From an uncultured Flavobacteriaceae bacterium (GTDB taxonomy: Bacteria > Bacteroidota > Bacteroidia > Flavobacteriales > Flavobacteriaceae): 39,433 nucleotides of DNA. How positions within the stretch are numbered: position 1 is the stretch's first letter; each line of letters starts with the position of its first letter. The position numbers and the translations under genes are program-made. The stretch is from the NCBI GenBank assembly GCA_937923515.1, contig CALDUF010000086.1, forward strand, positions 1 to 39,433. The letters run 5' to 3'. The notes under the pieces were generated by a model that made no database searches, was not told where the DNA came from, and saw only the letters and a program-made list of their open reading frames with translations. Shown in pieces: positions 2,795-34,844 of the stretch.

Positions 2795-3781
2795 TTATGT
2801 GCTCATGATATCTGAGACACGTAATAATTCTAAATTAATTTTTGATTTTCCTTTAATAGCTTTATCAAGCGGTGTTAATTCCATCACATTATTATGTAAT
2901 CCTACCATGTAATTTGTTTTACCTTCTTTTAAAGATTCTACAGCCTTAACACCCATTCTACTGGCTAAAACTCTATCAAAACAAGAAGGTGAGCCACCAC
3001 GCTGCATGTGCCCTAAAACAGATACTCTAACGTCGTAACCTTCCATGTTTTCATCAACATATTCTTTAAGCTCAAAAATATTTTTACCTATTTTATCGCC
3101 TTCAGCAACTACAACAATACTAGAAGACTTACCAGATTTTCTACTTTTGTTTAGAGAATCTACTAAACGATCTAATCCTAAATCTTCTTCAGGAATTAAA
3201 ATCTCTTCAGCACCACCGGCTATACCGACATTAAGTGCTATATGGCCAACATCACGCCCCATAACTTCAATAAAAAACAATCTGTTATGCGAGCTTGCTG
3301 TATCTCTAATTTTATCAATAGCTTCTACTACTGTATTTTGCGCGGTATCAAAACCTAGGGTGTGCGACGTTCCAAAAATATCATTATCAATTGTTCCTGG
3401 AATACCAATTACCGGAAAACCATATTCTTGATTAAAAATCATAGCACCAGTAAACGTTCCATCGCCACCAATAGCAACAAGTGCATCAATGTTAGCTGCC
3501 ACCAATTGATCGTGCGCTTTTTTTCTACCTTCTTTTGTTCTAAAATCTTTAGAACGTGCAGATTTTAATATAGTACCGCCTTTATTAATAATACCTTTAA
3601 CACTTCTAGGGCCCATAACTTCAAAATCTCCTGTCATCATACCTTCATAGCCCCTGTAAATGCCAACGCATTCTATACCATGATATGCGCAAGTTCTAAC
3701 AACTGAGCGCACTGCAGCATTCATACCTGGAGAATCTCCTCCTGAAGTAAAAACACCTATTTTCTTTATTTCTTTTGACAT
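2795..3781 (-). CDS. pfkA: ATP-dependent 6-phosphofructokinase
   Basis: Phosphorylates fructose 6-phosphate to fructose 1,6-bisphosphate, the committing step of glycolysis. The 328-residue protein has TSGGDSPGMN near the start (12-21), the nucleotide loop IGGDGT (104-109), PGTIDND (128-134) with the catalytic Asp132, and the substrate motif MGRDVGH (174-180). A Gly after GGD, where pyrophosphate enzymes have Asp, points to ATP as donor. First gene of the pfkA-gap group, with gap starting 18 bases after its stop. I could not find a convincing TAnnTTTG promoter box in the 145-base spacer upstream. Confidence 0.97.
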   Translation of the reverse strand: MSKEIKKIGVFTSGGDSPGMNAAVRSVVRTCAYHGIECVGIYRGYEGMMTGDFEVMGPRSVKGIINKGGTILKSARSKDFRTKEGRKKAHDQLVAANIDALVAIGGDGTFTGAMIFNQEYGFPVIGIPGTIDNDIFGTSHTLGFDTAQNTVVEAIDKIRDTASSHNRLFFIEVMGRDVGHIALNVGIAGGAEEILIPEEDLGLDRLVDSLNKSRKSGKSSSIVVVAEGDKIGKNIFELKEYVDENMEGYDVRVSVLGHMQRGGSPSCFDRVLASRMGVKAVESLKEGKTNYMVGLHNNVMELTPLDKAIKGKSKINLELLRVSDIMST

Positions 3782-3926: not shown

Positions 3927-6900
3927 TTAATTTGCTTTTGTAGAGGATTTTACCGTAATAAAACCAGGAAGCACTTTTTCTTCTTTTTGATTAGTGCTAG
4001 CTTTTGAAGTATCGTCTAATTTTGGCTTCTTTTTAAATAAGTTTCTAAGTAGTTCTTTAAAGGTATCAAAATCTACATTATAAGACAAACCAACCCCTTG
4101 TGTGTAGCCAATGTTTTGCCCAAAACTTTGGATGTTATTTTCTCTATTAAACACCTTTGCAGATAAGGTACCATCGGCATTTAATAAGAAGTTTATTTCT
4201 AAATCGCCCGCGACTACCGTTTGGGTTTCTCCTGCGCCGCCAACGGGCACACCAACACTACCATTAAAAAACACTTTGTCGTTTATTTGCGTTTGAAACG
4301 TAGCTACTACCCTATCGTCGGTTTGGTAGTCTGGTCTGTTTTGGCCTGCTTCGTAGTTAAAGCCAAAGTTAATTTTTCCATCTTCACTCGTAAAAATACC
4401 ATTTACAATTCCATTTAAACGTTCGGCAATTGTACCTGAAACATTTAACTCTCCTGAACCTCTATTTTGAAAAGAACCACCAGTTGCTAAAAAATACAAT
4501 GCCTGATCGCTACGTTCTGATTCCGTTTCTAAACGGTACTGCAGCTCTGATCTTATGGTGGAATTCACAGTAGGAAATGCAAAATCAAAACTAGGTTGTG
4601 GCCTTTCTAAATCGCCATTAAGTGTAATATTTAACTCTACTGGAATACTTCTGTTTATAGGATTATCCAAAAGTGGCGAAGGGTTGGTTTGCGTTTTATA
4701 GGTAGCTAACATGTTTATTTGTGCTTTCAACGGGTCGCCTTCCCAAGCTACTGTTCCACCAGGTTGTACAGTAAATTGTTTTTGTACCAAACCACCGTAA
4801 GCAAAATTATAAACCCCTTCAAATACCGAGAAATCGCCCCACATATCAAACTTTCCGTTGGTATTAATTTCTACCAATAAACCACCAACACCACGACCCT
4901 TTAATGCATGCCCAGTTTCTTTATTGATAATAATTTCTAACTCTGCATCTTGGGTAACATCTAAATCAAAATCCAATTCTAAACCTTGTACATCTTCTAA
5001 AACAAAGGCTTCTCCTTTTTCTCTGGCCTGCTTTTGCTCTGGCGTTATAAAGTGTATGAATGAATTGTCTCCAAATGATTCTGTATCGCTTAACGGAATT
5101 TTAAATACCGTTCCTCTTTTAGTTTCACCTATAACACGTATCATCAGCTCTTCTGTAGGGCCATAAATACTTGCAGTACCACCAACAAAACCTGTACCGT
5201 AATATAAAGATTCTTCCGTTTCTTTGGTGTCTAAAACTAAAAATCTATCGGTAGATAAACCTAAATCTAACCTCCAAGCAGATAGGTTTACATGACTTAA
5301 TTTTCCGCTTAATCTTGCTAACGACTTATATTTTGAATCTGTTAGCAACACATCACTAAACAAAAAACTTTGGTTGTCTAAACCTACCTTGGCATTATCA
5401 TTTAGTTTGTAATCTACATTTAAATACGGAATGGTAAAGCCACCATTATTAATATTTAATTCGCCAACAATATCGGGTTTTAATAAGTTGCCTATAATAT
5501 TTGCTTTACCCGTGGCAACACCTCTAATTTTAGACAGCACACCCGACAGTAGCGGATTTAAAGGGCTTAAATTAAATCTATTGAATTCTAAATCTACATC
5601 AATTTTTGATTTATTTCTGCGTACATCTATATCGCCAATGGCGGTAAACGTGCTTTTTACTTCATCTATAATACTAACATCTACATTGTATTTTGATAAA
5701 TCTTCGTTCCCAACAATTTGTGCATTAAAATCACCTAGAGGAAAATTATTTACTTTTAAATTTTCTACAATTACTGTTGAATTAGGTAAATACGCACCGT
5801 TTTTTTGTAGAATATCTAGTTTACCATTTACAATGCCGTTAAGCTTTAAACTATCAATATCTGGTGTTATTTTTGAAAGCCTAACATCTTTAAATTTCAA
5901 TTTTAAATCCTTCTCTGTGGAGTCTTTTACAAAACCAGATAAGGTAACTTTTTCTGATCCATGATTGATATTTAAACCATTTATTTCAAACGAAGAAAAA
6001 TCTTTATTGAATGAAATCTTATTAAATCTATCGTTATTCTCATTAATTAACCATTTATAATCTTTAATACTAACATCTGATGTTTTAAAACCAATCACAG
6101 AATTATTCTCTTGATTTATGGTATGGTAAAAACTTAAATTGATCTTGTCGTTATTCTGTTTTCCTCCAGAAAATTCTGAACGCATAAAAAGTGTATCGTT
6201 AACAGTAGCGTTAATTAAACTAAATTTAGAAGCGTTGTAAAATTTTGTATTTACACTATCTATTTCTACATAAGTGTTAAAAAGCGGATTGCTATTATCA
6301 ACTTGTAGCTCTACCTTTTTTACAAAATTATTAAGTAGTTTTATTTCGGGCGATTTAAAAGTGAGCTTAAACTTATCAGCATCACTATGCATGCTACCTC
6401 TAATAAAAGTGTTTTTACCCAACTCAAGTTCGGGATATATTACCTCAATAATTTTATTATAAATTTTGAAGTTGAAATTGATACGTTGGTTATCTGCAAC
6501 TGCATGTGGTTTGTAATTGGTGTAAATATTACCCACCGAGTTTTCTAAAAGCTTAACTATGTCGCGTACTGAAAACTCGCCGCTTATACCACCTTCAATA
6601 ATATCAGGAGAATCTATATCTATATAACGCGTATTACCTTCAAACTTAGACGCTATTTTAAAACTCTCAAAATTATAAGTATCATTTTCGTTTTTGTAAG
6701 AGGTGTTTCTAAAGGTTATTCTGCCATAGGCATCATCAAAACTACTACTGTTCATATTCATATTAACAGTACTTTTAAAAATAGAAATGCTATCTTTTTT
6801 TACGAAATTTAGCTTGTTTAGGTTTGCATAGTCTACCTCAGCTTCAAAATCATACTTATTTATTGTTTCAGAATAATCAACTAAACCATTAAATTTTAGT

Positions 6901-16235: not shown

Positions 16236-16309
16236 TGAGCCCTGAAGGATTCGAACCTTCGACCGCCTCCTTAGAAGGGAGGTGCTCTATCCAGCTGAGC
16301 TAAGAGCCC
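16236..16309 (-). tRNA. tRNA-Arg(TCT)
   Basis: The minus strand folds as a complete 74-base cloverleaf. The acceptor is GGGCTCT with AGGGCTC (two wobble pairs) and discriminator A; the D arm is GCTC...GAGC with AGCTGGATA loop; the anticodon stem CCTCC/GGAGG encloses CTTCTAA with anticodon TCT; the T arm is GAAGG-TTCGAAT-CCTTC. CCA is not encoded. TCT reads AGA/AGG arginine codons, common in this AT-rich genome. Confidence 0.97.
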
Positions 16310-25763: not shown

Positions 25764-27227
25764 TTAGTTTTTCTCAGGAATAGCCTTTAAAATTTCTAAA
25801 ACAAATCTCCAATATTTTTGAACTGATGAAATTTGCGCGCGTTCATCTGGTGAGTGTGCCCCTTTTATATTTGGCCCAAAACTTATCATATCCATCTCTG
25901 GATAATTTTGCCCAAGAATGCCACATTCAAGTCCAGCATGACATGCAGCCACGTGTGGCTTTGTACCATTTAAATCCTCGTACAGTTTAGCCATTACTTT
26001 TAAAATAGCAGAATCCATGTTGGGCGTCCATCCAGGATAATCGCCGCTGTATTCTACTTCGCAACCTGTTAATTCAAACGTTGCTCTAAGGCTATTTGCT
26101 AAATCTATTTTAGAACTTTCTACCGACGACCGTGTTAAACACCCAATTTTAATAGCACCGTTTTTTACAATAACTCTAGCGATGTTGTTTGAGGTTTCTA
26201 CCAAATCAGGAATATCTGCACTCATACGATACACGCCATTAAGCGCAGCATATATAGCTCTTATAAGGCCTTCTTGAACACCTAAATCCATAACGTTTTT
26301 TGGTGTATCGCATTTAGAAATAGTAACTTCCAAATCTGGCTCCATCGTTTTATACTCGGTTTTTATAGTATTAACCAAGTGTTGTGTTTCTAAAAGAAAT
26401 GCGTCTTCGTGCATGGCATCTATAGCTACAATGGCTTTACTTTCTCTTGGAATGGCGTTGCGCAAGCTACCACCATCAATTTCTGAAATACGCAACCCGA
26501 AATTTTCAAAACCATCAAACAACAAACGGTTCATTATTTTATTGGCGTTCCCTAAGCCTTCATGAATTTGCATTCCAGAATGCCCACCTTGTAAGCCTTT
26601 TACGTTAATTTTAAAGCCTATTTTAAACTCTGGTGTTTCCTCTTCGGTATAGGTTCTTGTTGCTGTTACATCAATACCACCTGCACAACCCACGCCAATT
26701 TCGTCGTCTTCTTCGGTATCTAAATTCAATAATATGCCACCAGATAACAACCCGCCTTTTAAACCCATTGCGCCCGTCATTCCGGTTTCTTCATCTATTG
26801 TAAATAGTGCTTCTATGGCCGGATGCGCTATGTTTGTACTTTCTAAAATTGCCATAATTGTAGCAACGCCTAAGCCATTATCTGCGCCAAGTGTAGTACC
26901 TTTAGCTTTAACCCAATCGCCCTCTACATACATATCAATGCCTTGGGTATCAAAATTGAATACTGTATCACTGTTTTTTTGGTGTACCATATCTAAATGC
27001 GATTGCATTACCACTGTAGTTCTATGCTCCATTCCAGCGGTTGCTGGCTTTTTTATGATAACGTTACCTACTGCATCCTCAATAGTTTCTAAACCTAGAT
27101 TTTTGCCAAAGTTTTTCATAAATGCGATAACGCGTTCTTCTTTTTTAGAAGGGCGTGGTACGGCGTTTAAGTCGGCAAATTTATTCCAAAGTTGTGTAGG
27201 TTCTAGCTGTCTAATTTCTTTACTCAT
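25764..27227 (-). CDS. pepD: Aminoacyl-histidine dipeptidase / cytosol non-specific dipeptidase (M20)
   Basis: A 487-residue cytosolic zinc dipeptidase that hydrolyses Xaa-His and other dipeptides. Two-metal ligands are H77 and D79 in VMQSHLDMVHQ, D116 in LGADNGLGVAT, catalytic E146 with ligand E147 in TIDEETGMTGAMG, D170 in LLNLDTEEDDE and a C-terminal His in the CHAGLECG region. The lid-domain HSGMQIHEGLGNANKIMNRLL is a PepD hallmark. The length is normal. It is minus-strand, convergent with corA, and divergent from the DUF3810 gene across a spacer that holds the paired-arm element. Confidence 0.95.
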   Translation of the reverse strand: MSKEIRQLEPTQLWNKFADLNAVPRPSKKEERVIAFMKNFGKNLGLETIEDAVGNVIIKKPATAGMEHRTTVVMQSHLDMVHQKNSDTVFNFDTQGIDMYVEGDWVKAKGTTLGADNGLGVATIMAILESTNIAHPAIEALFTIDEETGMTGAMGLKGGLLSGGILLNLDTEEDDEIGVGCAGGIDVTATRTYTEEETPEFKIGFKINVKGLQGGHSGMQIHEGLGNANKIMNRLLFDGFENFGLRISEIDGGSLRNAIPRESKAIVAIDAMHEDAFLLETQHLVNTIKTEYKTMEPDLEVTISKCDTPKNVMDLGVQEGLIRAIYAALNGVYRMSADIPDLVETSNNIARVIVKNGAIKIGCLTRSSVESSKIDLANSLRATFELTGCEVEYSGDYPGWTPNMDSAILKVMAKLYEDLNGTKPHVAACHAGLECGILGQNYPEMDMISFGPNIKGAHSPDERAQISSVQKYWRFVLEILKAIPEKN

Positions 27228-27277: not shown

Positions 27278-27413
27278 AGCTACTCCTGATTGCAACGGCA
27301 TCCTTTTTGCGACTTGCCTATAATGCCAATTGGAGATAAAAAAACCACTGTTTTACAACTATTTAAACAGAAAATTAAAACTACTTCGCGAAAAGATATA
27401 GTGGAAAGCAGGA
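27278..27413. repeat. Paired-arm intergenic element, copy A
   Basis: Left arm GATTGCAACGGCATCC (27288-27303) plus T5GCGA, right arm TCGCG (27386-27390) running into AAAAGATATAGTGGAAAGCA (27391-27410) GGA. The inner stem is TTTTTGCGA with TCGCGAAAA (one wobble) and the outer stem is TCCTG with CAGGA, around a 73-base centre that also holds CTGTTT...AAACAG. The same layout occurs in copy B. It lies between pepD and the DUF3810 gene, divergent. Confidence 0.8.
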
Positions 27414-27459
27414 AGAAACTTTAGTAAATACAAAGGAACGCTGCGGTACAAATTTTTAG

Positions 27460-27471: not shown

Positions 27472-28563
27472 ATGCTGAAAAAGAAAAAAGTGCTTTTAGC
27501 CTTGAGCATTATACCACAGGTTTTGGTGGTAAAATGGCTAGCAAAACATCCTAAAATTGTAGAGCGCTATTACAGCGAGGGCTTGTACCCTTTTGTTTCT
27601 AAACTGTTTAGGGGTGTTTTGGGCTGGTTGCCATTTTCGTTTGGCGATGTGGTGTATGGGTTGGGTGGTTGCTATATAATTTGGTGGTTTGTAACACATA
27701 GATTGCGCATTGTTAAAGATTTTAAGGCTTGGGCGGTTGATGTGTTTTGTGCGGTGTCTTTAATTTATTTTGCGTTTCATGCGTTTTGGGGTATGAATTA
27801 TTACCGATTGCCACTGCATGATAATTTAAATTTAGAGGCCAATTACACTACGGAACAACTGGTTGTTGTGACAGAAAAACTAATTGCAGCATCAAATAAT
27901 TTGCATGTTAAAATTACCCATAACGATACGGTTGAAGTAGATGTACCGTACGATAAAACACAGATTTTTGAATTGATACCAAAGGGTTACGATAATTTAA
28001 AACAGGTGTTTCCACACTTAGATTATTATCCTAAAAGTGCAAAACAATCGTTATTTAGTTACCCGTTAACTTACATGGGTTTTAGTGGGTATTTAAACCC
28101 GTTGACTAATGAGGCGCAGGTAAATGGGCGGATTCCTATGTACAAATTCCCAACAACTACGGCGCACGAAATTGCGCACCAATTGGGTTATGCTGCCGAA
28201 AATGAGGCTAATTTTATTGGGTTTATGGCGGCGGCGCATAACGATGATATCTTTATAAAATATTGCGGTTATACTTTTGGACTGCGGTTTTGTTTGAATG
28301 AAATTTACAGACGGGATACTTGTTTATTTGATGATGTTGTTGCCGATGTTAATCCTGGAATCTTAAAAAACTACGAAGCATCGCGTGCCTTTTGGCAAGC
28401 TCACGAAAATCCGTTAGAACCCTTTTTTAAGTTGTTTTATGGCAATTTTTTAAAAGCGAATAACCAAGCTAAAGGTATGGAAAGTTATAGCTACGTTGTA
28501 GCACTTTTGGTAAATTACCTGGAAGGAAACCCATTAAGTACTTATGGTAGTTTAGCAGACTAA
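27472..28563 (+). CDS. DUF3810 integral-membrane zincin-like protein
   Basis: A 363-residue protein with two to three N-terminal hydrophobic segments (about 7-25, 55-75, 90-110) and a periplasmic or cytoplasmic metalloprotease-like body. TTTAHEIAHQLGYAAENEANF (HEIAH at 232-236, followed by candidate third-ligand Glu at 243/245) is a gluzincin-type HExxH signature of the DUF3810 family. A role as a membrane-associated peptidase is likely by motif but unproven. Codons are richer in G than in its neighbours (stretches such as GGGTTGGGTGG), a mild compositional difference. A box TATTTTTG ends four bases before the ATG. A strong terminator follows. Confidence 0.88.
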   Translation: MLKKKKVLLALSIIPQVLVVKWLAKHPKIVERYYSEGLYPFVSKLFRGVLGWLPFSFGDVVYGLGGCYIIWWFVTHRLRIVKDFKAWAVDVFCAVSLIYFAFHAFWGMNYYRLPLHDNLNLEANYTTEQLVVVTEKLIAASNNLHVKITHNDTVEVDVPYDKTQIFELIPKGYDNLKQVFPHLDYYPKSAKQSLFSYPLTYMGFSGYLNPLTNEAQVNGRIPMYKFPTTTAHEIAHQLGYAAENEANFIGFMAAAHNDDIFIKYCGYTFGLRFCLNEIYRRDTCLFDDVVADVNPGILKNYEASRAFWQAHENPLEPFFKLFYGNFLKANNQAKGMESYSYVVALLVNYLEGNPLSTYGSLAD

Positions 28564-30478: not shown

Positions 30479-31711
30479 ATGAGCTCAGAGCTTTTATTCT
30501 ATATCATAATTGCAATAATCGTTATCAATTTTATAATTGATAAAATTTTAGACGCCTTAAACGCAAAACATTTTAATGATGAATTGCCTGATGCACTTAA
30601 AGATGTTTACGACGCTACCGAATATAAGAAATCGCAAAACTACAAGGCGACTAAATATAAATTCAGTCTCATTACCTCTCTATTTTCTGTGGTTTTAACA
30701 CTTGGTTTTTTATGGTTTGATGGTTTTGCATTTGTAGATACCATAGCGAGACAGTACAGCAATAACCCTATACTTACAGCCTTAATTTTCTTTGGAATTA
30801 TTACAATTGGCAGTGATATTTTAACCACACCGTTTAGCTATTATAGCACTTTTGTAATAGAAGAAAAATTTGGATTTAATAAAACCACCCTAAAAACATT
30901 TTTGTTAGATAAGGTTAAAGGTTGGCTTATGATGGCCGTTGTTGGCGGTGGCATTTTAGCGTTAATTATTTGGTTTTATGAGGTTACAGGCAAACACTTT
31001 TGGCTTTATGCTTGGGGACTGGTTGCTGTGTTTACCTTATTTATGAATATGTTTTATTCAAAACTAATTGTGCCATTGTTTAATAAGCAAGCGCCTTTAG
31101 AAGCTGGAGATTTGCGTGATAAAATTTCGGCTTATGCCAAAACTGTAGGGTTTAAATTGGATAAAATTTTTGTTATTGATGGCTCTAAGCGCAGTACAAA
31201 AGCCAATGCCTATTTTTCTGGTTTTGGTAGCGAAAAACGCGTAACACTTTATGATACCTTAATTAATGATTTGGACAATGAAGAAATTGTTGCAGTATTA
31301 GCGCACGAAGTTGGACACTATAAAAAGAAACATATTATTTTTAATTTATTTGCGTCTATACTACTAACTGGTGTTACGCTATACATCTTATCGTTGTTTA
31401 TATCAAACCCTGCGTTGTCTCAAGCTTTAGGTGTTACAACGCCTAGTTTTCATATTGGATTAATTGCTTTTGGATTACTTTATGCACCTATTTCTGAAAT
31501 TACAGGATTAATTATGAATGTGTTTTCTAGAGCATTTGAATACCAGGCAGATAATTATGCCAAAAACACATATAAAGCTGAACCCTTAATTACATCGCTT
31601 AAAAAACTTTCCAAAAATAGTTTGAGTAATTTAACACCGCATCCTGCGTATGTGTTTATGCATTATTCGCACCCTACGCTTTTAGAGCGTATTAAAAATT
31701 TGAGGAAGTGA
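30479..31711 (+). CDS. M48 family (Ste24/CAAX-type) membrane metallopeptidase
   Basis: A 410-residue inner-membrane zinc protease. Hydrophobic segments at about 5-25, 65-90, 98-120, 150-170, 175-195, 290-310 and 325-350 match Ste24 topology. The zinc site is HEVGH (276-280) with the third ligand Glu354 in FEYQAD. TKANAYFSGFGSEKRVTLYDTL is the M48 substrate-adjacent signature. Ste24 relatives cleave misfolded or C-terminal-CAAX membrane proteins; in bacteria the role is membrane-protein quality control, which is inference here. The 120-base spacer upstream shows no clear promoter box. Confidence 0.93.
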   Translation: MSSELLFYIIIAIIVINFIIDKILDALNAKHFNDELPDALKDVYDATEYKKSQNYKATKYKFSLITSLFSVVLTLGFLWFDGFAFVDTIARQYSNNPILTALIFFGIITIGSDILTTPFSYYSTFVIEEKFGFNKTTLKTFLLDKVKGWLMMAVVGGGILALIIWFYEVTGKHFWLYAWGLVAVFTLFMNMFYSKLIVPLFNKQAPLEAGDLRDKISAYAKTVGFKLDKIFVIDGSKRSTKANAYFSGFGSEKRVTLYDTLINDLDNEEIVAVLAHEVGHYKKKHIIFNLFASILLTGVTLYILSLFISNPALSQALGVTTPSFHIGLIAFGLLYAPISEITGLIMNVFSRAFEYQADNYAKNTYKAEPLITSLKKLSKNSLSNLTPHPAYVFMHYSHPTLLERIKNLRK

Positions 31712-32649: not shown

Positions 32650-33597
32650 TTATTTTAAATATGCCAAAACATTAGTTTCAATACGTTGTTGAATGTTAGA
32701 CACATCGGCTTTTACAAAGGTTTCGCCTGTGATGTTTTCGTAAAGTTCTATGTAGCGTTCTGAAACGCTTTCTATGTATTCATCACTCATGTGTGGTACT
32801 GTTTGCCCTTCTAAACCTTGAAAATTATTAGCAATTAACCATTGGCGCACAAACTCTTTACTTAATTGCTTTTGTGCTTCGCCTTTATTTTGACGTTCTT
32901 GGTAACCATCGGCGTAAAAATAACGTGAGGAATCTGGAGTGTGTATTTCATCAATTAGTACAATTTTACCGTCTTTGGTTTTTCCAAATTCGTATTTGGT
33001 ATCTACTAAAATTAAACCTCTTGAGGCTGCTATTTCTGAACCTCGCTGAAATAATTTACGCGTATAGTCTTCTAAAACCACATAATCTGCTTCTGAAACA
33101 ATGCCTTTTGCTAGTATGTCTTCTCTAGAAATATCCTCGTCATGGTCTCCCATTTCAGCTTTGGTTGCTGGTGTGATGATGGGTTCTGGAAACTTATCGT
33201 TTTCTTTCATCCCTTCTGGCATTGGCACACCACATAGCATGCGTTTTCCTGCTTTGTACTCGCGTGCTGCATGACCAGACATATAGCCACGTATTACCAT
33301 TTCTACTTTAAAGGGTTCGCACAAATGCCCAACGGCCACATTAGGATCTGGTGTGGCGGTGAGCCAGTTTGGAACCAAATCTTCTGTAGCAGCCATCATT
33401 TTAGTGGCTATTTGGTTTAAAATTTGTCCTTTATACGGGATACCTTTTGGCATTACCACATCAAAGGCTGATAGCCTATCGGTTGCCACCATAACCAATT
33501 CTTCGTCGTTTATGTTATATACGGCACGAACTTTTCCTTTATACAAACTCTTTTGTCCTGGGAAATTAAAATTGGTATCTATTATTGTATTACGCAT
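32650..33597 (-). CDS. purC: SAICAR synthetase (phosphoribosylaminoimidazole-succinocarboxamide synthase)
   Basis: Joins CAIR with aspartate using ATP in de novo purine synthesis. The 315-residue length is that of the longer PurC form common in Bacteroidota, against about 240 in enterobacteria. Motifs: [13 protein letters not shown] (phosphate and ATP loop), [50 protein letters not shown] and the C-terminal [15 protein letters not shown]. Together with the GMP reductase at the window start it covers purine metabolism, though they are not linked. Upstream, 33598-33890 holds the paired-arm element and no gene. Convergent with DUF2452. Confidence 0.97.
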
Positions 33598-33739
33598 TGG
33601 TAAAACTGTTTAATCGTTTATGAGTTTATTTGTTTGTTACTGGTTTGCGAATTTTTATTGCAATGTTGTTTTACACATTGCCGCACAGCGCTTAAATATA
33701 TAATTTGTTACGACGTTTTTTTGTTGTTGCCTATACCCT

Positions 33740-33880
33740 AGCCCCGATTGCAGCGGCATCCTTTTTGTGTGCTTTCTAATGGTTAACTATTTATGCTATA
33801 CAACCTTTTTGCTATTACTTTATGGAGGTGCTAAATATATGAAGCACACAAAAAGATATAGCGGAAAGCGGGATACAGCT
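33740..33880. repeat. Paired-arm intergenic element, copy B
   Basis: Left arm GATTGCAGCGGCATCC (33746-33761) followed by T5GTGTGCTTTC, right arm GAAGCACACA (33841-33850) running into AAAAGATATAGCGGAAAGCG (33851-33870) GGA. The inner stem is 14 pairs with a single-base bulge, and the outer stem is CCCG/CGGG, with a centre of about 64 bases. Core blocks match copy A almost exactly and in the same orientation, while stems differ compatibly. It lies between phoH and purC, both on the minus strand. Confidence 0.82.
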
Positions 33881-33890
33881 CCTAAAAAAA

Positions 33891-34844
33891 TTAATCTCTA
33901 TTCTCTATACTTTTATAAGCTTCTATAACTTTCTTGACTAATTTATGACGGATAACATCTTTATCGTCTAAAAATATGATGCCTACGCCATCTACATTTT
34001 TTAAAATTAACAAAGCTTCTTTTAATCCTGAAATGGTACGACGTGGTAAATCTATCTGCCCAGGATCGCCTGTTAATAAAAACTTAGCATGTTTACCCAT
34101 ACGCGTTAAAAACATCTTCATTTGCGCGTGGGTGGTATTTTGTGCTTCGTCTAAAATTACAAAGGCATTGTCTAGCGTGCGCCCACGCATAAAGGCTAAT
34201 GGCGCTATTTGTATGGTACCTTTTTCGATATAACTTGCTAGTTTTTCGGGTGCTATCATATCGCGTAATGCATCGTATAAAGGTTGCATATACGGGTCTA
34301 GTTTTTCCTGTAAATCGCCTGGTAAAAATCCTAAATTTTCGCCTGCTTCTACCGCAGGACGCGTTAATATAATACGCTTTACTTCTTTATTTTTTAAAGC
34401 TTGAACTGCTAATGCGACACCTGTGTAGGTTTTACCTGTACCTGCTGGCCCAATGGCAAACACCATATCGTTTTTATGCATGCTTTCTACAAGTCTACGT
34501 TGGTTTGCGGTTTGGGCTTTTATAAGCTTACCACCAACACCGTGTACTATAGTTTCGCCACTGGCTTTTGATGTGGTGTAGTCATCACTACTTTGACTTG
34601 TAAGCACACGTTCTATGGTATTTTCGTCTAGTTTGTTATACTTCCCAAAGTGTTTAAGAAGCATAGTGATACGTCTATCAAACTCTTCTAGTAATTCTTC
34701 ATCACCAAAGGCTTTTATTTTGTTACCACGCGCTACTATTTTTAGTTTTGGAAAATATTTTTTAAGCAGTTCAATATTAGCGTTTTGAGCTCCAAAAAAT
34801 TCCTTTGGAGTGATTTCTTCAAGTTCAATTATAATTTCGTTCAA
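33891..34844 (-). CDS. phoH: PhoH-like ATPase
   Basis: A 317-residue cytosolic P-loop NTPase of the PhoH family, an ATPase whose relatives act in RNA metabolism and stress response. Walker A is GPAGTGKT (132-139); Walker B is VILDEAQN (229-236), and LTRMGKHAKFLLTGDPGQIDLP is the family sensor stretch. The N-terminal about 110 residues form a KH-like nucleic-acid-binding piece (KIVARGNKIKAFGDEELLEEF). It is divergent from the SAM hydrolase gene, a common pairing in Flavobacteriia. A minus-strand TATTTTTG at 34945-34952 may be its -7 box, leaving a leader of about 95 bases. Confidence 0.95.
   Translation of the reverse strand: MNEIIIELEEITPKEFFGAQNANIELLKKYFPKLKIVARGNKIKAFGDEELLEEFDRRITMLLKHFGKYNKLDENTIERVLTSQSSDDYTTSKASGETIVHGVGGKLIKAQTANQRRLVESMHKNDMVFAIGPAGTGKTYTGVALAVQALKNKEVKRIILTRPAVEAGENLGFLPGDLQEKLDPYMQPLYDALRDMIAPEKLASYIEKGTIQIAPLAFMRGRTLDNAFVILDEAQNTTHAQMKMFLTRMGKHAKFLLTGDPGQIDLPRRTISGLKEALLILKNVDGVGIIFLDDKDVIRHKLVKKVIEAYKSIENRD

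Follow-up and report, generated by a model that had tools for sequence, protein, structure and literature searches.

The Flavo-1 family as a dispersed folding repeat with a three-way junction frame and two alternative cores

Two intergenic elements, hereafter copies A and B, in a 39,433-nucleotide stretch of DNA from an uncultured Flavobacteriaceae bacterium (contig CALDUF010000086.1; the whole stretch is referred to as the window) are ordinary members of Flavo-1 (Rfam RF01705), a known, unexplained family that behaves as a dispersed intergenic repeat. New features include a frame extending beyond the single arm modelled by Rfam, which forms a three-way junction with strong covariation (115 of 223 copies), and the occurrence of two alternative P2 cores in the same frames. 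We give roughly even chances to the view that Flavo-1 is an old, dispersed, DNA-level folding repeat with a REP- or attC-like logic and a putative mobiliser, a view that fits somewhat better than that of an RNA gene.

Two Flavo-1 copies in the window

A sequence-only reading of the window had described a paired-arm element in two copies. This observation is confirmed and non-random: the combined pattern (left core, T5G, gap, right core, GGA) has exactly two matches in the window, at 27288-27413 and 33746-33873, both on the plus strand and hence in the same orientation, as had been described, and none in 100 dinucleotide shuffles. The left core alone, with up to three mismatches, was found in the window only at the same two places (0.21 expected). 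Both copies match RF01705, the family that the sequence-only reading had named for comparison, and exceed its gathering score of 42. Copy A (27278..27419, plus strand; cmscan 52 bits) is composed of the left core GATTGCAACGGCATCC (27288..27303), an apical P2 part with T5G, an inner stem and a long variable loop (27304..27390, delineated from the sequence and its orthologues), and the right core AAAAGATATAGTGGAAAGCAGGA (27391..27413). Copy B (33736..33879, plus strand; 67.6 bits) has the left core GATTGCAGCGGCATCC (33746..33761), an apical P2 part on the plus strand whose base forms 13 consecutive Watson-Crick pairs (33762..33850), and the right core AAAAGATATAGCGGAAAGCGGGA (33851..33873). All four cores, on the plus strand, were placed by pattern search. 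The helix with two symmetric internal loops and conserved core letters that characterises Flavo-1 was recognised in copy B aligned to the model, with exact cores in both copies. Each has core module A, a long P2 arm and a class I frame, which is shorter than that of class II and in which no clear P3 was seen.

The outer stems differ between the copies yet remain complementary, as first reported (CCTG/CAGG in A, CCCG/CGGG in B), and the R/Y pair is also compensated, A-T in copy A versus G-C in copy B. The inner stem of copy A (TTTTTGCGA/TCGCGAAAA) contains one T·G pair. The proposed core spacing of 65-75 bases holds only when the inner stems are removed, the gap from T5G to AAAAGATATAG being 81 bases in copy A and 83 in copy B. 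Both copies lie outside plausible genes, in agreement with the initial description. Copy A is located between the divergent genes of an M20 peptidase (25764..27227, minus strand; Pfam PF01546) and a DUF3810 protein (27472..28563, plus strand; PF12725). Copy B stands between two minus-strand genes, purC (SAICAR synthetase; 32650..33597; PF01259) and phoH (33891..34844; PF02562 and ORF), with 17 bases between the phoH stop codon and its right core. The window also carries a tRNA-Arg (TCT) gene at 16236-16309 on the minus strand.

Rfam assigns RF01705 the gene type sRNA, and Weinberg et al. 2010 included Flavo-1 in their table of Bacteroidetes motifs, where the accessible part marks the RNA column y and the cis-regulatory column n (PMC2864571). 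In the accessible text of the F. psychrophilum transcriptome study of Guerin et al. 2021, Flavo-1 matches are indistinctly sense or antisense to transcribed regions, many lie outside any transcribed region, and no real functional clue is offered (PMC9723704). A 2022 review lists Flavo-1 among the most abundant small RNA families, with no function given in its accessible part (PMC9029176).

A three-way junction frame with strong covariation

In total, 223 unique copies, which form a non-random sample, were gathered and assigned by simple rules to class II (115), class I (96) or an unclear group (12). The Rfam model spans 76 positions and pairs the P2 arm only. Class II elements extend outward from it, with a stem P1 (typically GCGTTA ... 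TAACGC) and a third hairpin, P3. RNAalifold analysis of 52 class II copies, picked for short loops and a recognised P1, yielded a three-way junction of P1, P2 and P3, in which P2 is the long arm with two internal loops that the Rfam model represents. Among these 52 copies, 98.4% of the cells in 24 pairs were paired, as compared with 39-54% in slid controls, and 15 pairs had changed on both sides. Cells changed on both sides numbered 163 versus 44.8 +- 6.3 in shuffles, none of 500 being as high, with 54 of the 163 (columns 22, 23 and 25) reflecting an alignment shift between two core variants. Rather than an isolated pair of copies or uncompensated stems, which the sequence-only reading had named as its refutation, many copies with much additional covariation were thus found.

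P1 occurs with 16 distinct left arms. In 43 copies the left arm differs from GCGTT; in 28 of these it is fully complementary to the right arm, and in a further 10 the arms are GGCTT/AAGCT, with G·T as the last pair. Arms taken from other copies reached the same high score in 21.5% of cases versus 85.1% for the real ones, the P1 arm having been selected as the best complement, which favours pairing. At the base of P2 in the 223 copies, the first position is GC in 111, CG in 68, TA in 38, AT in three and another combination in three, and the second is GC in 114, CG in 95 and AT in 14, with neither G·T nor A·C in the 446 cells. P1 positions 0-3 gave no G·T, three A·C and three other combinations among 902 cells. 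This lack of G·T concerns P2-base positions 1-2 and P1 positions 0-3 and not the whole structure, since G·T was found in 13 of 223 copies at one core pair and in 12 of 114 at the terminal P1 pair. Earlier wobble counts from walked inner stems (18 G·T and 37 A·C, 28 of the latter from one misaligned position) were excluded. Pair changes are mostly whole Watson-Crick swaps, with few intermediates.

The idea that apical parts of about 81-92 nt represent unrelated content of fixed length was dropped, as recurring second repeats were found inside many of them; the pattern listing of apical loops covered loops up to about 93. In the genomes of the genus, many long P2 arms carry other recurring repeats near their 3' side (GGATTCCTGCCTTCGCAGG, GATTGCCACGTCGCTCACTCCTCGC, GAGATCCCGAAACGAGTTCGGGAC), and the G010 copy at the site of copy A has a second hairpin near the 3' side of its apical P2.

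An alternative core in the same frames

At the site of copy B, three other genomes (G001, G004, G008; degenerate in G003) have the same outer frame with a different inner part, GAGGC..TTTGTTGRAGC..hairpin..GCGACTGCC, hereafter core B. Elements with this core are mostly missed by Rfam, two scoring 24.5 and 24.9 bits (L147 and L155), one being unlisted (L149) and one reaching 42.6 (L143). The exact core B pattern was found at 125 places in 46 of 199 genomes of the family, while the pattern read backwards, as a control, gave none. Inspection of 33 copies indicated that core B occurs in both class I and class II frames.

Distribution among genomes, plasmids and viral contigs

The suspicion that similar arms recur in other Flavobacteriaceae was borne out at the level of the genome, the genus and the family. 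The genome of the window has 60 Flavo-1 matches at E<=0.001, of which 32 are above the cut-off. All 12 genomes of the genus have matches, from 3 to 60 per genome, as do 42 of the 60 genomes in a family sample, with at least 65 in one of the genomes analysed (G044). Under stricter filters, with at most 15 candidates scored per genome, 44 of 296 genomes across the phylum matched; no Flavo-1 match was found in 14 control genomes.

Beyond the phylum, Rfam identified four copies, scoring 50.7 to 64.2 bits, on three plasmids of Paraclostridium bifermentans (Bacillota). These plasmids came from a search with one genomic copy (L069, from G274) that returned 20 records, with five of P. bifermentans the strongest; Flavo-1 was present in all three of these five that were checked against Rfam. 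The copies lie at 571-647 and 3511-3586 (L125), 3992-4068 (L126) and 31376-31452 (L158), and the three inspected by eye have a P3 hairpin and complementary ends. Phage or plasmid carriage was set aside as an explanation: copy B as a query gave no plasmid match, and a phage search with L069 gave weak matches only (best E 0.6). Two pattern scans of viral contigs returned 2 and 11 stretches, with a good element in 7 of the 13.

Fixed sites and gene context

The site of copy A carries Flavo-1 or a variant in five other genomes (G003, G004, G005, G006, G010), with nothing similar in G007. Two further positions are occupied across genera. In the gap between sufD and sufS, nine genomes from seven genera carry core A, and two genomes, each from a different further genus, carry core B. 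Beyond phoH, where copy B lies, core A is present in nine genomes (five genera) and core B in five (three genera), with no element recognised in G002, G007 and G009. Loci of both sites were fetched as bearing an element or matching the neighbourhood of copy B, so that these counts are not a census, and purC was checked as the other neighbour in one subset of the phoH loci. The names SufD and SufS are predicted from gene order and from the SufBD and aminotransferase class V domains (Pfam) that flank one element (L043). In every filled locus seen at the two sites, the Rfam strand runs antisense to the neighbouring genes. At both sites the element lies shortly after the stop codon of the upstream gene in operon direction. 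Copies A and B are best read as old, vertically inherited, fixed copies, and the stability of the two best sites over several genera suggests a local function.

For 25 of 30 loci in G274, gene orientations were mixed (++ 6, -- 8, -+ 8, +- 3). In a pooled set, where orthologous sites inflate the counts, -- was commonest (44 of 70 class I and 13 of 29 class II). Numerous further copies are located between divergent genes or at a distance from stop codons.

These sites bear on the possibility that a REP-like repeat is retained in operon gaps where its hairpin, formed in an mRNA complementary to the Rfam strand, shields the message upstream or takes part in its processing. Its position behind the upstream stop codon at sufD-sufS and phoH and the prevalence of the -- context are in keeping with such a role. 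We nevertheless consider it improbable, as the mRNA strand is the less stable one in most elements, G·A pairs become C·U on it, and many copies are placed between divergent genes or away from stop codons.

The folded strand and its nature

The strand under folding constraint is the Rfam strand, because G·T exceeds A·C on it (24 versus 2 cells in the 52 class II copies, and 16 versus 4 in a further count) and because, among 193 elements, it proved the more stable of the two strands in 81% of cases under DNA parameters and in 74% under RNA parameters. Whether this strand acts as RNA or DNA is less directly indicated. Short core B hairpins have GNA triloops in 55 of 62 cases, and some short P3 loops (GATA, GTTA, GGTA, GACA) are not GNRA loops of RNA. 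Neither loop rule accommodates CTTGT, which is the most frequent short P3 loop (21 of 73), and by our own reading about 20 of the 73 are G..A loops. The scarcity of G·T and the many GNA triloops suit single-stranded DNA; the G·A-type internal loops are compatible with RNA as well as DNA. For comparison, G·T occupied 10 of 105 pairs in five tRNAs, a small control. A -7-like promoter showed no clear enrichment upstream of the copies (35 of 223 versus 29.1 in shuffles and 37 on the opposite strand).

Insertion borders, decay and candidate mobilisers

In G044, the variable arms are in large part common to the 21 copies read, and the flanks of these copies are unlike. Flank profiles of 114 class II pairs have a right border CC-AAA and mostly T or C on the left. 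No 5' GTAG-like tetranucleotide foot was recognised in these profiles, which have mostly Y before P1 and CC-AAA after it. Target-site duplications, regarded in the sequence-only reading as a sign of a mobile element, were not supported, since neither the 114 flank pairs of class II nor the 62 of class I showed a clear k-mer excess; the most favourable of many duplication offsets gave 6 versus 1.9 expected, for class I 3-mers. On this basis a classical element of that type was rejected. Composite elements were also discarded, the genes between neighbouring copies appearing ordinary, from translations read by sight, in two stretches each of G044 and G010.

No clean pair of empty and filled sites was found for those of the 30 G274 loci that gave matches in 0.8 Mb of the relative G371. 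The two genomes have one element in common (L096). At L101 both element ends are kept and P2 was lost between short direct repeats, at L098 half of the element was lost, and two other sites have diverged. Copies can thus decay by deletion. A replication-strand bias is expected for IS200-like movement. Orientation with respect to the replichores in eight single-contig genomes was weakly biased (111 versus 80, p 0.03), as computed from 150 listed of 218 matches plus 41 of G274, with dnaA as origin proxy (at 3.59 Mb in G274) and partly rounded lengths; a strong bias was rejected on these counts.

The Y1/RAYT domain PF01797 was found in 20 of 39 genomes; no match was obtained for six that carry 11-37 copies (G007, G008, G014, G016, G028, G060). 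Among 26 Y1 loci scanned for core A (L179-L188, L202-L217), one had a copy, about 2.4 kb from an IS200-type gene (L217), and core B was not found near the Y1 genes of L202-L217. In the 11 of 16 fetched loci where RAYT-like genes were read with their flanks, the hairpins appeared by eye to differ from Flavo-1. A RAYT as mobiliser of Flavo-1 is not supported, as no RAYT gene was flanked by a copy in the loci examined and PF01797 was not found in the six copy-rich genomes. RAYT-like genes at seven loci (L202, L203, L204, L206, L209, L213, L215), mostly with YIHNNP or YIHQNP, carry their own hairpins of several kinds, those of L203 and L209 sharing CTACCGCTAG...CTAGTGGCGGTAAGAGTAAG. Another locus (L212, G000:C24:10001-10342) has an open frame of 505 residues that weakly matches a Y1 transposase domain, and long frames similar to it occur in G002, G004, G011 and G047. 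RAYTs of the Bacteroidetes subclass 2.6 are described, in the accessible part of the source, as flanked by atypical structures (PMC6006769); at the loci inspected here, the flanking structures are not Flavo-1.

Interpretation

The sequence-only reading had left the choice between a structured RNA and a mobile palindromic repeat. A folding repeat with covariation is upheld, the balance leans towards a dispersed repeat acting at the DNA level, and the classical target-site duplications of a mobile element are not part of it. The DNA-level reading is favoured by copy numbers from 3 to 60 within one genus and the similar arms with unlike flanks in G044, by whole Watson-Crick swaps without G·T at P2-base positions 1-2, and by the GNA triloops (55 of 62) and non-GNRA P3 loops. 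It is further favoured by a folded strand that is antisense at sufD-sufS and phoH and of mixed orientation in G274, by transcripts that are strand-inconsistent and often absent in the accessible published record (PMC9723704), and by the lack of clear promoter enrichment. Against it stand the mobilising enzyme, which was not found, and the clean empty/filled pair, which was not obtained; the non-random pooled gene context, the G·T pairs that do occur and the small tRNA control; the CTTGT loop as the commonest, template switching, and G·A loops that suit RNA too; and the weak replication-strand bias and the stability of the two best sites over genera.

As a mechanism, the folded molecule would be single-stranded DNA arising from replication or transfer rather than a transcript. 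A putative single-strand recombinase or transposase may recognise the junction and core and spread copies, much as RAYT acts on REP hairpins or IntI on attC sites. Once inserted, copies would remain in place, have their cores exchanged or replaced, or lose P2 via slippage, and those in operon gaps may be retained for a secondary use. In its boldest form, which we advance tentatively and at somewhat less than even odds, Flavo-1 would not be an RNA gene; it would be a folding single-stranded DNA three-way junction with interchangeable cores, belonging to a putative single-strand recombination system, with in-place core replacement at ancient sites.

The main competitor follows Rfam in taking Flavo-1 as a structured RNA, made from the Rfam strand as an sRNA, an antisense RNA or a protein-binding RNA, with core loops that contact a partner. 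Covariation on that strand, the preference for G·T over A·C, two conserved G·A-type internal loops, long-term conservation at fixed sites and the sRNA gene type speak for it. We judge it unlikely, though a serious contender, given the mixed gene orientation in the G274 lineage expansion, matches that are sense, antisense or untranscribed in the accessible published data (PMC9723704), unclear promoter enrichment, little G·T at most varying pairs, and triloops and GNYA loops in place of GNRA. Least probable of all is covariation produced by mutation, through quasipalindrome template switching in decaying repeats of no present function: whole-pair swaps with few intermediates, a site at which P2 was deleted between short direct repeats, and the reported ability of template switching to create and maintain RNA hairpins, whereby it can mimic compensatory change even in RNA genes (PMC8794818, accessible part), are in its favour, yet homogenisation alone would erase the mismatch loops and frame that are conserved across genera and on Bacillota plasmids.

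Returning to the DNA-level repeat, its larger frame, the interchange of cores at old fixed sites and the lean towards single-stranded DNA give the family more interest than its sRNA label would suggest. If Flavo-1 is a DNA element, the sRNA annotations in Rfam and in the review cited above (PMC9029176, accessible part) are misleading, and dispersed folding DNA of a new kind, whose recognition cores can be swapped, becomes testable. The sufD-sufS and phoH-purC copies offer conserved, defined places for such tests.

Comparison with known systems

Copies A and B share the core loops and P2 arm of Flavo-1 as modelled in RF01705 and exceed its gathering score, whereas the P1/P3 frame and the alternative core B lie outside that model. 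As with REP elements and their RAYTs (TnpA-REP, Bacteroidetes subclass 2.6 included), Flavo-1 copies fold into mismatched hairpins, are scattered through intergenic regions and vary in number. They differ in that no RAYT gene was flanked by a Flavo-1 copy in the loci examined and that RAYT-like genes carry, as judged by eye, their own hairpins. The attC sites of integrons are imperfect hairpins of one folded strand with an apical part of variable length, features also found in Flavo-1. Class II ends, however, read GCGTTAGGG ... AACGCCCA, and inspection by eye revealed neither RYYYAAC ... GTTRRRY ends nor such a pair in attC arrangement. Finally, the BOX elements of Streptococcus pneumoniae are modular dispersed repeats with an exchangeable inner part, a general description that applies to Flavo-1 as well, with the difference that module exchange in Flavo-1 is confined to one hairpin arm.
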